DNA from: Colwellia sp.
GTDB taxonomy: Bacteria > Pseudomonadota > Gammaproteobacteria > Enterobacterales > Alteromonadaceae
Length of the DNA stretch: 64,000 nucleotides
Assembly: GCA_026196955.1 (NCBI GenBank)
Contig: JAPHTO010000043.1
Coordinates: 1-64,000 of the forward strand
Direction of reading: 5' to 3'
Shown in pieces: positions 27,709-35,118 of the stretch. The notes beneath the pieces are model-generated. The model worked only from the letters and a program-made list of their open reading frames with translations. It was not told the origin of the DNA and did not search any database. A program made the translations under genes and the position numbers. The stretch's first letter is position 1. Each line of letters begins with the position of its first letter.

Positions 27709-28653
27709 CTACTCTTGGATAACTTGAATAGGATCAGTTTCTTTTGCTTTACCTTGGTTAATAGCAATCTCGACACGTCGATTTCTACGGCGGTTTAAGG
27801 CATTTGTATTTGGTACTAATGGACGAGTATCTGCATGCCCTGCAACCACTAAACGCGTTTGATCAAAACCCGGCACTTTAATTAACTCATGAGCAATAGC
27901 AACCGCACGCTTACTCGATAAATCCCAGTTAGAGCTAAAGAGTTCAGAGTCTAGACCTCGATTATCGGTATTACCTGAGACCATGATTTCACCGGGTACG
28001 GTATTTAATAGTTCACCTATCTCTTTAATGATAGGCCTAAACTTAGGCTGTAAAAAGGCAGAGCCTGATGGAAAGGAACCATTTTCACGAATACGAATGA
28101 TCACTTGCTGACCCAAAGACTCTAACTCAATGGCGCCATCTTGAATTTGCTGCTCAAGTTGCTCAGCAATTTTTTTCACTAAATCATTAACTTGCTCTTG
28201 CGCAGCATTTTCCATTTGCTCTTGAGCTTGTTGTAAAGCCTGTGCTGATAATGCATCTTCTGTATTTTGCGATTGACCACCACGTTCAGTACCACGCTGC
28301 TCTTGTCGACCGCCAGCTGACGTTTCATCACCCGCTTGAAACTCTAGCATTTGCTGAGTCATTTCCATGGTTTGCTGTTGAATCACTTCAATAGGCGTAG
28401 GCTCAGGCTTACCCGGTCTAAATTCCTGCGCAATAATACTAGTCCCTTTAGGAATATCTTTAACTTCAATTTTATTTTGCACACCAAAGGCAAACTTCAT
28501 CGACCCTGCAATTTGCTTAAACTTTAAGACATCCATTTCTGAGAAAGATAATAACAATACAAAGAAGCACATCAGTAGCGACATGAGATCGGCAAAAGTG
28601 CCCATCCATGCAGGTAACCCCGGCGGTGGACATTTACATTCTTGTTCAGCCAT
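27709..28653 (-). CDS. pomB: Flagellar stator protein PomB (MotB family, Na+-type)
   Basis: Peptidoglycan-anchored half of the polar-flagellum stator. The 314-residue protein has a short N-terminus with PPPGLPAWMGTFADLMSLLM, where Asp22 in the single transmembrane helix (about 19-40) is the ion-binding residue. A Gln-rich linker (about 70-155) and a C-terminal OmpA-like domain (about 180-305, with VSGNTDNRGL and RRRNRRVEIAI) follow. The CxC plus PPPGLPAWM front end is that of the PomB group rather than H+ MotB. It lies 57 bases after pomA. Confidence 0.9.
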   Translation of the reverse strand: MAEQECKCPPPGLPAWMGTFADLMSLLMCFFVLLLSFSEMDVLKFKQIAGSMKFAFGVQNKIEVKDIPKGTSIIAQEFRPGKPEPTPIEVIQQQTMEMTQQMLEFQAGDETSAGGRQEQRGTERGGQSQNTEDALSAQALQQAQEQMENAAQEQVNDLVKKIAEQLEQQIQDGAIELESLGQQVIIRIRENGSFPSGSAFLQPKFRPIIKEIGELLNTVPGEIMVSGNTDNRGLDSELFSSNWDLSSKRAVAIAHELIKVPGFDQTRLVVAGHADTRPLVPNTNALNRRRNRRVEIAINQGKAKETDPIQVIQE

Positions 28654-28710
28654 ATATAACCTCTAACATAAGCGCCCTAACATAAGCATCTGCTCGCATA
28701 AGTGCCCCCA

Positions 28711-29475
28711 CTACTCTTCAGTAGTATCAATAGCGCGTTTACCTTCGGCAAGGTAGTTTTTCAACAGGCCTTCAATGACCCGAGGGTTTTGACCATCTTG
28801 TATGCCTAATACTGCATCAAGCACCAATTCCTGATTCATTTTCTCTTCTGCCATACGCAGTTTTAATTTTGAGGCAATTGGAATAGCGATAACGTTCGCT
28901 AAAAAGGCACCATAAAGTGTAGTTAATAAGGCAACCGCCATGGCAGGACCGATTGATTTTGGATCATCCATATTTGACAACATAGCCACCAAGCCAATTA
29001 GCGTACCTATCATACCCATAGCAGGAGCGACATCGGCTAGCGACATCATCATATTCGACCCTGTTTCGTGGCGCTCGGTGGTGAGGTTAATATCTTTTTG
29101 TAACGTAGCGCGTACTACATCTGCGTCATGCCCATCAACAAGCATATCGACACCCTTTTGCATAAAAGGGTTGGTGATTTCAGCTTCTTCCAAAGCAAGA
29201 AAACCGCCTTTTCGTGCTGCATCAGCCATATCAACAGCTTTTTCAATTAGCTCTTCAGGTTTTTCTAACTTGAACATAAAGGCTTTAGCAATGATTTTTC
29301 CGATACCGAAAAATTGGCTTAAATTATAATTCGATAAAACAATGAAAATTGAACCACAAAATACAATTAGCACTGATTGAGTATCAGCAAACATCATGAT
29401 GTCGCCAGACAAAACCATTGCCATCGCAAGTAGACCGATAGCACCAAGGATACCTATTAACGTTGCTAAATCCAC
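28711..29475 (-). CDS. pomA: Flagellar stator protein PomA (MotA family, Na+-type)
   Basis: Four-helix stator subunit that forms the ion channel with PomB and pushes on FliG. At 254 residues it has helices at about 4-24, 29-49, 150-170 and 180-200, with the cytosolic loop between helices 2 and 3 bearing the charged residues EKPEELIEKAVDMADAARKG. The conserved MMSLADVAPAMGMIGTLIGL and DDPKSIGPAMAVALLTTLYG are clear. It has the same gene order as Vibrio pomAB, next to xseB in the opposite direction. Confidence 0.93.
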   Translation of the reverse strand: MDLATLIGILGAIGLLAMAMVLSGDIMMFADTQSVLIVFCGSIFIVLSNYNLSQFFGIGKIIAKAFMFKLEKPEELIEKAVDMADAARKGGFLALEEAEITNPFMQKGVDMLVDGHDADVVRATLQKDINLTTERHETGSNMMMSLADVAPAMGMIGTLIGLVAMLSNMDDPKSIGPAMAVALLTTLYGAFLANVIAIPIASKLKLRMAEEKMNQELVLDAVLGIQDGQNPRVIEGLLKNYLAEGKRAIDTTEE

Positions 29476-32879: not shown

Positions 32880-33230
32880 TTAAAGTGTTGTTCTTCCAGG
32901 ACCAAGTAAAGGGCATAAGAAGAATTTATCCCCTGAGTCCATGACACCATCACTATTGACATCTATCCACCAACGGCCACCTAAATGCCCCACTTCTCCT
33001 GGACCATATTCAGTAGTCAAACCATTCATTGTTGGCACAAGCTGCTGAAACTCCCCTTTCATGGGTAAATCTGTCACTACGATTGAATCGTAATACAAAC
33101 CTTGTGAAGTGACGTAAACAACAGGCGCCCCTTCTGAGCCACGACCTTTCTTTTTTGCTACTGCTGGATTATTCACTAAAGTAATAGCAGCAACCATTAC
33201 AATTACTACAATAAGACTAAATTTATTCAT
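32880..33230 (-). CDS. Small secreted protein with EF-hand-like loop, function unknown
   Basis: A 116-residue protein I do not recognise. Residues 1-25 form a signal peptide ending PAVAKK; a polar stretch KKKGRGSEG follows. The C-terminal half holds GHLGGRWWIDVNSDGVMDSG and continues DKFFLCP: the D-x-N-x-D-G-x-x-D spacing matches a calcium-binding EF-hand or dockerin loop, though only one copy is present. GGGAGAGATCAC before the ATG is a good ribosome site. It is the first accessory gene after the conserved dxs, adjoining the repeat element. Likely periplasmic or exported; binding of Ca2+ is inference. Confidence 0.65.
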   Translation of the reverse strand: MNKFSLIVVIVMVAAITLVNNPAVAKKKGRGSEGAPVVYVTSQGLYYDSIVVTDLPMKGEFQQLVPTMNGLTTEYGPGEVGHLGGRWWIDVNSDGVMDSGDKFFLCPLLGPGRTTL

Positions 33231-33371
33231 GTGATCTCTCCCGTTTTATTAAGTAAACAATTACCTGCTTTAGTATCAACAAGAGTTATCACAAAAGAAT
33301 CACAAAATGGTCACTTGTATATAACATATAAAAAATCAATTAAATTTACTCTACCCCTCTAATATCATCAT

Positions 33372-33490
33372 TGGTTAGTGATAAACTCAAAAGCTTGGTG
33401 CTTTATTCTCTGTCTGGCGTCGACATCCCCTTTGTAATGGTTAGTGATAAACTCAATAGTTTGGCGCTTTATTCTCTGTCTGGCGTCGCG
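33372..33490. repeat. Two-copy tandem repeat, 66-base period
   Basis: TGGTTAGTGATAAACTCAA begins at 33372 and again at 33438. The next ~34 bases also match, with three or so changes, up to CTGGCGTCG. The conserved unit is about 53 bases, with a non-repeated spacer of 13 bases. The period is a multiple of three, so a repeated peptide appears in translation, but nothing else supports coding. Confidence 0.85.
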
Positions 33491-33544
33491 GTGGCGACGA
33501 CACCCAAAGGGGCGTTACACGCCAAAAGCCCCTTTGGAATCCCC
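33485..33544. repeat. Left hairpin module of inverted pair
   Basis: Begins GTCGCGGTGGCGACGACACC and holds a perfect 10-bp stem (CCAAAGGGGC at 33504-33513, complement at 33528-33537). Its reverse complement matches the module at 33935-33992 on both sides of the loop, with different loop sequence. Confidence 0.8.
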
Positions 33545-33630
33545 GTGGCGCCCAACTCAGCAGAACATTCAATAACAAACTCGCGTAACCCACGATACCT
33601 GCCGATTTATCATCCATGAACAACGGCAGC

Positions 33631-33656
33631 CCTCGACGTCCTGTCTCGGGTCGAGG
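33631..33656. repeat. Hairpin within the element
   Basis: CCTCGAC at 33631-33637 pairs with GTCGAGG at 33650-33656 around a 12-base loop. It is GC-rich compared with its surroundings and lies between the left hairpin module and the branched structure. Confidence 0.65.
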
Positions 33657-33811
33657 CCTACCCTTGCTCATTTGTCATTTCATTGCTGAGATGGGAATGG
33701 GTATTTGTGACTTTTCTTATTTTCAAAAGCAACAGTAGAGTTCTTTAATAGTTAAAATGACACTGTATCAACAAGCACCAAGTCTGCTTGAACAAACGCT
33801 GAAATGAATGA

Positions 33812-33899
33812 AAGTGTTCACGTATGTTCATCAGGGATGATGAACAAAGCGCTGTTGGCACATGGATGTGCCATCAGCGTCGTTACGTCGAAAACACTT
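33812..33899. repeat. Predicted three-way-junction (branched inverted repeats)
   Basis: Closing stem: AAGTGTT 33812-33818 with AACACTT 33893-33899, then ACGTA 33820-33824 with TACGT 33884-33888. Arm 1: TGTTCATC 33825-33832 with GATGAACA 33839-33846, loop AGGGAT. Arm 2: CGCTG 33850-33854 with CAGCG 33875-33879, then GGCACAT 33857-33863 with ATGTGCC 33866-33872. All stems are perfect within themselves. Whether it acts as RNA or as folded single-stranded DNA is unknown. Confidence 0.6.
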
Positions 33900-33934
33900 G
33901 AATGAATGTAAGGTTAAGTTTGTTAGCAGCTCCG

Positions 33935-33992
33935 AGGGATTCCAAAGGGAGGCCGGAGGCAGCCTCCCTTTGGGTGTCGTCGCCACCGCGAC
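33935..33992. repeat. Right hairpin module of inverted pair
   Basis: A perfect 12-bp stem (CCAAAGGGAGGC 33942-33953, complement 33962-33973, 8-base loop) followed by GTGTCGTCGCCACCGCGAC, the reverse complement of the start of the module at 33485. It ends one base before the right 19-bp direct repeat. Confidence 0.8.
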
Positions 33993-34092
33993 AAATCAAT
34001 TAAATTTACTCCGACCTAATTCTCCCTTGTTGGCCATTATAGAGAAACGATAACTAGCTGTTATTTTCCTGCTTAATTAACTTGATAAATGG

Positions 34093-35118
34093 TTAACTGT
34101 GCAAATACAAATAAGTAGCAGCAATCCCCGCAACTATATTTAATACTAATGACCAAATTGTTTGCTTAATGAATGTTTTTCCATGCTTTTTGTTTATATC
34201 TATTGCTTCAGCATTTGCTTTTTTATCTCCCGAGGTAAGTGAAAAAACCACTTTTTGACCGTTTATATCATCTAATGCACCATAAACACGACTTGCGAGG
34301 ATATGACCAATTTTACCAACAGGGTTAAAACCATATAAGCCTAAAAATAACCAAATGGCAGTAATTTTGACAGTCATATCACCAGAATATTGGTGAGTAT
34401 TTATCCACAAAAAACTCGAAACCCATAATAAAGCATACATTAAAGTCACGGAATGATGAGTCAACTCTGCTAATCTTTGACGACGCTTCTTAAACCAATA
34501 ATAGAAGTCTGTTATTAATGCAGGCTCTTTTCTTGCCTTAACCCAATCAGTAACTTCATTGATTAACTCTTTACTTATTTGTGCGTTAATAAAATCAACT
34601 CTACAAAATGCAGGAGCTGTAAGTACATCGACTTGGTCAAAATCATCAGAGTTTCCAGAAGCCATCATTTGCATAAACTTTCCAGGTTTCATATCTGATG
34701 ATATTCTTACTAGAAGTGTATGCCTCTGAGGGGATTCATAACCTTGGATATCAACCATAAAGTCCCACTTAATTACGACTTCTTCAACGCACTCTGGAGC
34801 TTGCCAATGATGCTCTTGAAACTCAGCCCAAGTTCCAAACTCTTGCATATCAGAATCTTCATAACCAATATTTAGTGAAGTAATTTTAGCGTCTATATTA
34901 TGTATTTGTAGCTTCCTACTAATACAATCATTTAACTCAATAATATCACTAACCTCTAAGTAAAGTGGCTTATGATAAACCTTAATCCTTGAATCTGGCT
35001 TGCCAGCAAAAAAATAGAACAATGATTTAAGTTGCTCTTTAGGCATTTTTGCAACAACTCCACCAGATTTTTTGACTGAGTCCTCATCCATTTCAATTAC
35101 AGCATTTCCATGAGTCAT
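34093..35118 (-). CDS. Unrecognised 341-residue protein with C-terminal membrane region
   Basis: I cannot assign a family. The first ~215 residues look soluble and mixed alpha-beta (for example KVYHKPLYLEVSDIIELND and EEVVIKWDFMVDIQGYES). A basic patch YYWFKKRRQRLAEL precedes a membrane region of about three helices: near 228-245 (LMYALLWVSSFLWI), 254-272 (VKITAIWLFLGLYGFNP) and 320-339 (LVLNIVAGIAATYLYL). There is no signal peptide, so the soluble part should face the cytosol. AAGGAGAATTAAGAG before the ATG is a good ribosome site. It stands alone between the repeat element and the nqr maturation genes, so it looks like accessory gene content. Sensor, effector or immunity roles are all open. 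Confidence 0.6.
   Translation of the reverse strand: MTHGNAVIEMDEDSVKKSGGVVAKMPKEQLKSLFYFFAGKPDSRIKVYHKPLYLEVSDIIELNDCISRKLQIHNIDAKITSLNIGYEDSDMQEFGTWAEFQEHHWQAPECVEEVVIKWDFMVDIQGYESPQRHTLLVRISSDMKPGKFMQMMASGNSDDFDQVDVLTAPAFCRVDFINAQISKELINEVTDWVKARKEPALITDFYYWFKKRRQRLAELTHHSVTLMYALLWVSSFLWINTHQYSGDMTVKITAIWLFLGLYGFNPVGKIGHILASRVYGALDDINGQKVVFSLTSGDKKANAEAIDINKKHGKTFIKQTIWSLVLNIVAGIAATYLYLHS

Follow-up and report, generated by a model that had tools for sequence, protein, structure and literature searches.

Between dxs and nqrM of a Colwellia sp. lies a non-coding stretch rich in repeats, which had been read from its letters alone as a 660-base element with mirrored hairpins. It raises the question of what this element is, whether its fold matters and how it came to this site. 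We analysed a window of 64,000 nucleotides (assembly GCA_026196955.1, contig JAPHTO010000043.1, positions 1 to 64,000, forward strand) together with further genomes. The window copy proved to be a member of a dispersed, non-coding Colwellia repeat family. We consider it probable (about 0.62) that this composite repeat carries two divergent TwoAYGGAY-type RNAs that would serve as CsrA sinks when transcribed. The element is a dispersed and paired form of an orphan RNA class, in part not annotated before, and it shows strong signs of being a CsrA sponge.

A dispersed repeat family in Colwellia

The sequence-only reading had listed perfect 19-bp direct repeats, a 66-base tandem repeat and mirrored arms with differing loops, and all of these are present. 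The two 19-bp repeats are found at 33333-33351 and 33993-34011, and the tandem repeat consists of 33372-33422 and 33438-33488 (94% over 51 nt). Two pairs of perfect inverted arms, one of 27 nt (33485-33511 and 33966-33992) and one of 14 nt (33530-33543 and 33936-33949), enclose hairpin loops that differ between the sides. From 33100 to 34300, the longest direct repeat had a length of 23 and the longest inverted repeat a length of 27, compared with maxima of 17 and 18, respectively, in 500 dinucleotide shuffles. The facing hairpin modules of the earlier reading were confirmed in their arms and differing loops but not in their size and shape: each module measures about 210-220 nt instead of 60, and the two are multi-branched structures on opposite strands rather than simple mirrored hairpins.

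BLASTN matches (E up to 1e-5) were obtained in at least 35 of the 39 genus genomes, and the window's own genome contains a second copy (L008; G000:C53, about 28262-28805). Full-length copies were collected when both terminal palindromes (up to 4 mismatches in 21) and the right anchor were present within 350-660 bp. After removal of identical cores, the set comprised 43 copies of 427-651 bp, some of them at orthologous or duplicated sites (L119 and L144, for example). The pieces thus recur together in the genome and in its relatives, as had been supposed, and the copies occupy unrelated genomic sites. A pattern scan of the named genomes returned 17 stretches, all from Colwellia. The halves were also treated separately. 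Among 53 right halves, 52 were non-redundant and 33 were aligned, 14 being left out because they fell outside 205-235 nt and 5 because of a long third hairpin. The left halves numbered 67, of which 65 were non-redundant, 51 remained after filtering for the 5' anchor and for a single palindrome, and 45 were aligned. From 32 right halves we built R1, a covariance model of the right module; it matched in 40 of 295 genomes of the order, representing 13 of 99 genera.

The copies, which were selected for the palindromes and the right anchor, have the order palindrome GTCGCGGTGGCGAC, left module (minus strand), spacer, right module (plus strand) and palindrome GTCGCCACCGCGAC, with the two structured modules standing head to head (Table 1). 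The spacer is variable, with 57-170 nt in 42 copies, and a simple pattern for a CGTC-type palindrome was matched in 11 of these spacers and not in that of the window. In some copies (L111, L117 and L128, for instance), a further branched hairpin that bears additional GGA loops is inserted. Many copies have at least one unit like CTTGGAGTTT..CTGCTTGGC upstream of the left palindrome.

Table 1. Parts of the window copy and their coordinates
Feature	Position	Strand	Remark
19-bp direct repeat, left copy	33333..33351	+	absent behind dxs in G022 and G027
Two left units, 66-bp spacing, AGTGATAAACTCAA..GCTTTATTCTCTGTCTGGCGTCG	33372..33488	+	
Left terminal palindrome GTCGCGGTGGCGAC	33485..33498	+	
Left module, TwoAYGGAY-like structured RNA (predicted)	33485..33695	-	MFE z-score -5.31 (33485-33700)
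Left hairpin A, GGA, ACAGGACGU	33639..33641	-	GGA in 43/45 aligned left modules
Left hairpin B, GGA, CAUGGAUG	33613..33615	-	GGA in 45/45 aligned left modules
Left CCAAAGGGG hairpin, distal to both GGA hairpins	33504..33537	-	
Central spacer between the divergent modules	33696..33775	.	variable among copies; no convincing conserved promoter
Right module: TwoAYGGAY RNA (predicted), CCAAAGGG hairpin and terminal palindrome	33776..33992	+	MFE z-score -6.52
Right hairpin 1, GGA, CAGGGAUG	33835..33837	+	GGA in 33/33 aligned right modules
Right hairpin 2, GGA, ACAUGGAUGU	33864..33866	+	GGA in 33/33 aligned right modules
Right CCAAAGGG hairpin	33942..33973	+	
Right terminal palindrome GTCGCCACCGCGAC	33979..33992	+	
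END motif AAATCAATTAAATTTACTCCGACC, contains the right 19-bp repeat	33993..34016	+	resembles terminal repeats of some congener Y1 elements

The 19-bp repeats had been taken for the ends of the element, and this did not hold. When the 43 copies were compared, the left 19-mer of the window scored 19.0 against a control maximum of 11.0, and besides it only L027 rose above its controls, narrowly (12.5 against 12.0). The second copy of the own genome has a weak repeat of 28 nt (71%) at a comparable place, which was not above its controls. Terminal 19-bp direct repeats or a target-site duplication were thus clearly above control in the window copy alone, and a left END as a general boundary was ruled out. 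The left 19-mer is a peculiarity of the window copy and does not mark an end of the element family.

Related units were also seen in tandem. In G144, from another genus of the family, TwoAYGGAY-type units form tandem arrays with a spacing of 436-612 nt; the array L258 (3020-5106) has unit spacings of 593, 612 and 436 nt, and L259 (2532-4417) has 576 and 577 nt. In G207, four intergenic R1 matches lie around tandem lipoprotein-like genes of about 228 aa (L260, 3020-15278). At L041 (4431-6050), a tandem duplication joins part of a flgM-like gene (named by eye), the right module and END motifs. An integron attC array was considered for the tandem units of L041, L047 and L258 and was set aside on anatomy alone. 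Cargo of a phage or plasmid was also rejected, as no match to the element was found in the phage collection and the plasmid collection yielded only two 63-base matches, both on large Pseudoalteromonas records.

Fold, covariation and GGA loops

Selection on the fold, which had been suggested for the hairpins, was examined in the aligned modules. In the 33 right modules, 97.9% of the cells were paired, against 34-49% in slid controls. Both-side changes occurred at 30 of 70 pairs, compared with 18.0 after shuffling, and none of 500 shuffles was as high. The number of further pair types, a weaker measure, was 65 against 59.3 and was reached by 6 of 500 shuffles. G-U cells numbered 122 and A-C cells 11, and 61 of the 122 came from two nearly fixed pairs. 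RNAalifold predicted 40 pairs for the 45 left modules, and at 18 of these both sides have changed; since the selection of left halves required the CTGCCG..CGGCAG stem, and not GGA, the pairing in this stem is partly by construction. Together with the kept GGA loops and the low MFE z-scores (Table 1), the covarying pairs strongly support the view that the predicted fold is under selection.

The loops were then counted on both strands. In the right modules, ANGGA was found in 90 of 257 predicted hairpin loops in sense orientation (shuffle mean 6.1, maximum 9 in 20 shuffles) and in 0 of 253 in antisense. The left modules gave 48 of 316 in sense (shuffle mean 7.2, maximum 11 in 20 shuffles) and 2 of 343 in antisense; the 65 halves counted here were taken as stretches of 260 nt, with some spacer and a few overlaps included. 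As looked for in a CsrA sponge, one strand carries several ANGGA loops. Deviations were few: four of the 33 rows lack the base before GGA in right hairpin 1 (CAGGAUG), and in left hairpin A two of the 45 rows read CGA and one (L143) has no 5' arm.

The right module matched TwoAYGGAY (RF01731) over the full length at 33776-33937 with 41.6 bits, short of the gathering cut-off of 43 bits by 1.4. A gathering scan of the window returned no Rfam family at its cut-off, so other known RNA families were dropped as candidates for it. Homologous Colwellia copies pass the cut-off, with 51.5 (L010), 46 (L011), 45.6, 45.3, 44, 43.9, 43.7 and 43.3 bits, and it was exceeded in 7 of 61 genomes; we therefore assign the right module of the window to RF01731 by homology to these copies. 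It also has two AYGGAY-type loops in a closed multi-stem structure. At E up to 5, RF01731 did not match the left module (33480-33760). In the second copy of the own genome, the left half reached 28.2 bits (E 0.35), and R1 matched the left module of the window with 15 bits (E 0.08, 33692-33555, minus strand), both GGA loops being in register. To judge from this alignment, the left module is a diverged relation of TwoAYGGAY that is missed by Rfam.

The element has in common with TwoAYGGAY the pair of AYGGAY-type loop hairpins, the three-way junction and the long closing stem. It differs in being a head-to-head pair, the second module of which Rfam does not detect in the window, and in lying within a dispersed repeat with terminal palindromes. 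RF01731 belongs to the clan CL00106 together with E. coli CsrB and CsrC. The class appears without known function in a listing of 2010 (PMC2864571), and a 2014 paper by Gardner and Eldai proposes it as a CsrA-binding RNA (PMC4333381).

Occupied and empty sites and the END motif

The dxs gene is present in 39 genomes, and 30 loci were read. In 23 of them nqrM lies directly next to dxs, 66-204 nt away, so the clean empty site that had been expected in relatives exists. The element stands behind dxs in 3 loci, those of the window genome, G022 and G027. Of the four other loci, L283 breaks off 44 nt past the dxs match, L292 provides just 461 nt, and in L286 and L289 nqrM does not appear within 1500 nt of dxs. 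Because the element is common to three genomes, the insertion is not recent, and from the empty and occupied loci we infer that it took place behind dxs in an ancestor of the three species and was later inherited.

The distance from the dxs stop to the left units is about 28 nt in G022 (three units), about 72 nt in G027 (one unit plus a degenerate one) and 579 nt in the window. The extra stretch that separates dxs from the element in the window, some 500-550 bp long, holds the left 19-mer and a 116-aa ORF. This ORF (32880-33230, minus strand) has a likely signal peptide (by eye) and is not found at the dxs site of G022 and G027. Between the element and nqrM lies a 341-aa ORF (34093-35118, minus strand), for which the 38 other Colwellia genomes gave no match (E up to 1e-10); as it was found in 1 of the 39 genus genomes, its own, it was dismissed as a partner gene.

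The left half of the window copy is closest to its counterpart in G022 (95%), and the right half is closest to the cysH-site copy of G061 (91%). Since the two halves point to different copies, halves seem to have been exchanged between copies. The region behind cysH is a second old site of the element. The site was matched in 38 of 39 genomes, and the 30 loci that were read comprise 8 with both palindromes, 5 with a partial or decayed element (L181, L183, L190, L193, L195) and 17 without an element. Among these 17, L196 has an isolated palindrome far off, and the flank of L182 measures only about 340 nt. In L195 (2401-2440, from G011) the left palindrome is joined straight to END and the interior is missing, which is either a deletion product or a pre-insertion form. 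The partial decay and rearrangement of cysH-site copies (L190, L184) argues against strong selection on every copy.

At the right flank, AAATTTACTCTGACCCC was matched loosely in 22 of the 43 copies and TTACTCTGACCC (at most 1 mismatch, within 31 nt) in 7. Inverted END motifs bound Y1 transposase genes in 4 of 40 distinct loci (L158, L159, L162, L163), which come from four other Colwellia genomes. An exact 14-mer of END occurred 7 times in the 39 genomes, against 0 for the reversed control: twice beside the element, twice beside Y1 genes, once in a 40-bp palindrome and twice in other contexts. The palindrome (L310, 1475-1514) consists of two END motifs without a gene and looks like a minimal relic of a Y1 element. 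Furthermore, GGGGTCAG fits GGGGWSAS, given as the terminal motif of TIRYT genes (PMC3733652).

No inverted END was found upstream of the 43 copies in flanks of up to 1500 nt (shorter for 20 copies), so that END stands on the right side alone and does not form terminal inverted repeats like those of a transposase element. The own genome (draft, 95.5% complete) had no match to the Y1 transposase family PF01797 at E up to 0.001. The 40 Y1 loci, with flanks of up to about 1500-2000 nt, contained no right module (R1, E up to 0.1), and none of them showed an autonomous form of the element that encloses a Y1 gene. Where a Y1 match and the element share a contig, the nearest pair is about 25 kb apart (by eye, among the matches listed). 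A 13-mer in L103 that resembles the right anchor proved isolated.

The sequence-only reading had proposed a non-autonomous element moved in trans, a Y1 gene with the same ends being one thing to look for. The empty site, the recurrence of the pieces and the lack of a PF01797 match in the own genome agree with the first part, and the END-bounded congener loci agree in part with the second. A Y1 enzyme as the mover is still a guess, because the Y1 loci have no right module and the element no matching left end, and with no PF01797 match at home the connection between END and Y1 remains a lead. The resemblance to known mobile elements is likewise partial. END is like the GGGGWSAS repeats of TIRYT genes, but the element, unlike a TIRtron, has no inverted END at both ends and its trans-acting transposase is putative. 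With REPs (GTAG, CGTC) it shares the CGTC-type palindrome end of some spacers, but not of the window's, and with REPs described as 20-40 bp it is far from them in length (PMC3733652).

CsrA and the competing explanations

In the predicted fold of each RNA, a long stem closes a three-way junction that bears two GGA-loop hairpins, and the CCAAAGGG hairpin follows downstream. A transcript would display at least two GGA loops on stable stems and would sequester CsrA dimers in the manner of CsrB, CsrC and RsmY/Z. We take the CsrA sink as the best reading because of the common clan, the proposal of Gardner and Eldai, the SELEX-like loops and the CsrA gene encoded by the own genome. The CsrA SELEX site is given as RUACARGGAUGU with a 6-nt loop, and the loops of the element (ACAUGGAUGU) come close to it. 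Most of the SELEX ligands described there have stems of four or fewer pairs, and the longer stems of the element speak against CsrA (PMC7652899).

For transcription, a consensus scan found no sigma-70-like promoter in the centre. Hexamers like a -35 box (at least 4 matches, 16-18 nt) were weakly enriched: 14 of 43 copies had one, and six control spacings gave 2-6 of 43. No GacA-box-like site was found in 42 spacers, a U-run terminator is absent after either module, and two weak terminator-like sites both lie inside the left module. CsrB, CsrC, RsmY and RsmZ are single-locus sRNA genes with their own promoter and terminator. The element resembles them in the GGA-loop hairpins repeated along one strand, but it is a multi-copy repeat of two divergent modules with no clear promoter or terminator. 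In a literature search of listings and the beginnings of abstracts, no dispersed CsrA-sponge repeat was recognised.

Other explanations were considered. The hairpins might act as single-stranded DNA in a REP- or TIR-type non-autonomous element that is moved in trans by a TIRYT/RAYT-like Y1 transposase, the likeness to an RNA being incidental. The right END shared with the inverted ends of Y1 elements, the fit of GGGGTCAG to the TIRYT motif, the gene-less palindrome of L310 and the empty dxs-nqrM site would all suit this, and a transposase of single-stranded DNA could also read strand-specific hairpin loops. We nevertheless regard it as unlikely. The motif is confined to the right side, in 22 of 43 copies loosely and in 7 strictly; END on both sides was found in just 4 of 40 Y1 loci and the right module in none, and PF01797 is not matched at home. 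Moreover, with modules on opposite strands one DNA strand shows one set of GGA loops, and a function as ends would leave the 30 covarying pairs inside the modules unexplained.

The last point also bears on a rival explanation in which the family is selfish, decaying and at present without function, and conservation would come from recent spread and recombination between copies. Its merits are the remnants at the cysH site and the halves of the window, L010 and L025 copies, which point to different relatives. Most halves (47 of 52 right, 46 of 51 left) had their nearest relative in a different genome, and same-genome neighbours (5 and 5) were above the shuffled means of 1.3 and 1.0 and below the maxima of 7. 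Since neutral spread does not predict GGA loops that are kept while stems change in compensated pairs, this explanation seems quite improbable. A structured RNA of the TwoAYGGAY class with another ligand is conceivable, as CsrA is proposed here from the loop motif and the clan; with a loop motif near the CsrA consensus and CsrA present in the genome, we give it very little credence.

We therefore keep to a pair of divergent RNAs as putative CsrA sinks. A further step, which we regard as doubtful, is that the element multiplies such sinks. Each insertion would contribute another divergent RNA pair, with further hairpins gained or exchanged in modular fashion, so that a global post-transcriptional regulator would be tuned by the number of copies and the genes beside them, and Y1 transposases recognising END would help the spread in trans. 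If the CsrA hypothesis is correct, repetitive elements are able to spread regulator sponges across a genome. In the window the Rfam model reaches one half of the element alone, just under its cut-off. The CsrA hypothesis for TwoAYGGAY is directly testable in Colwellia, where dozens of copies form a natural series: stems have changed in compensated pairs, GGA loops are kept, sites are either occupied or empty, and decayed remnants are found as well.
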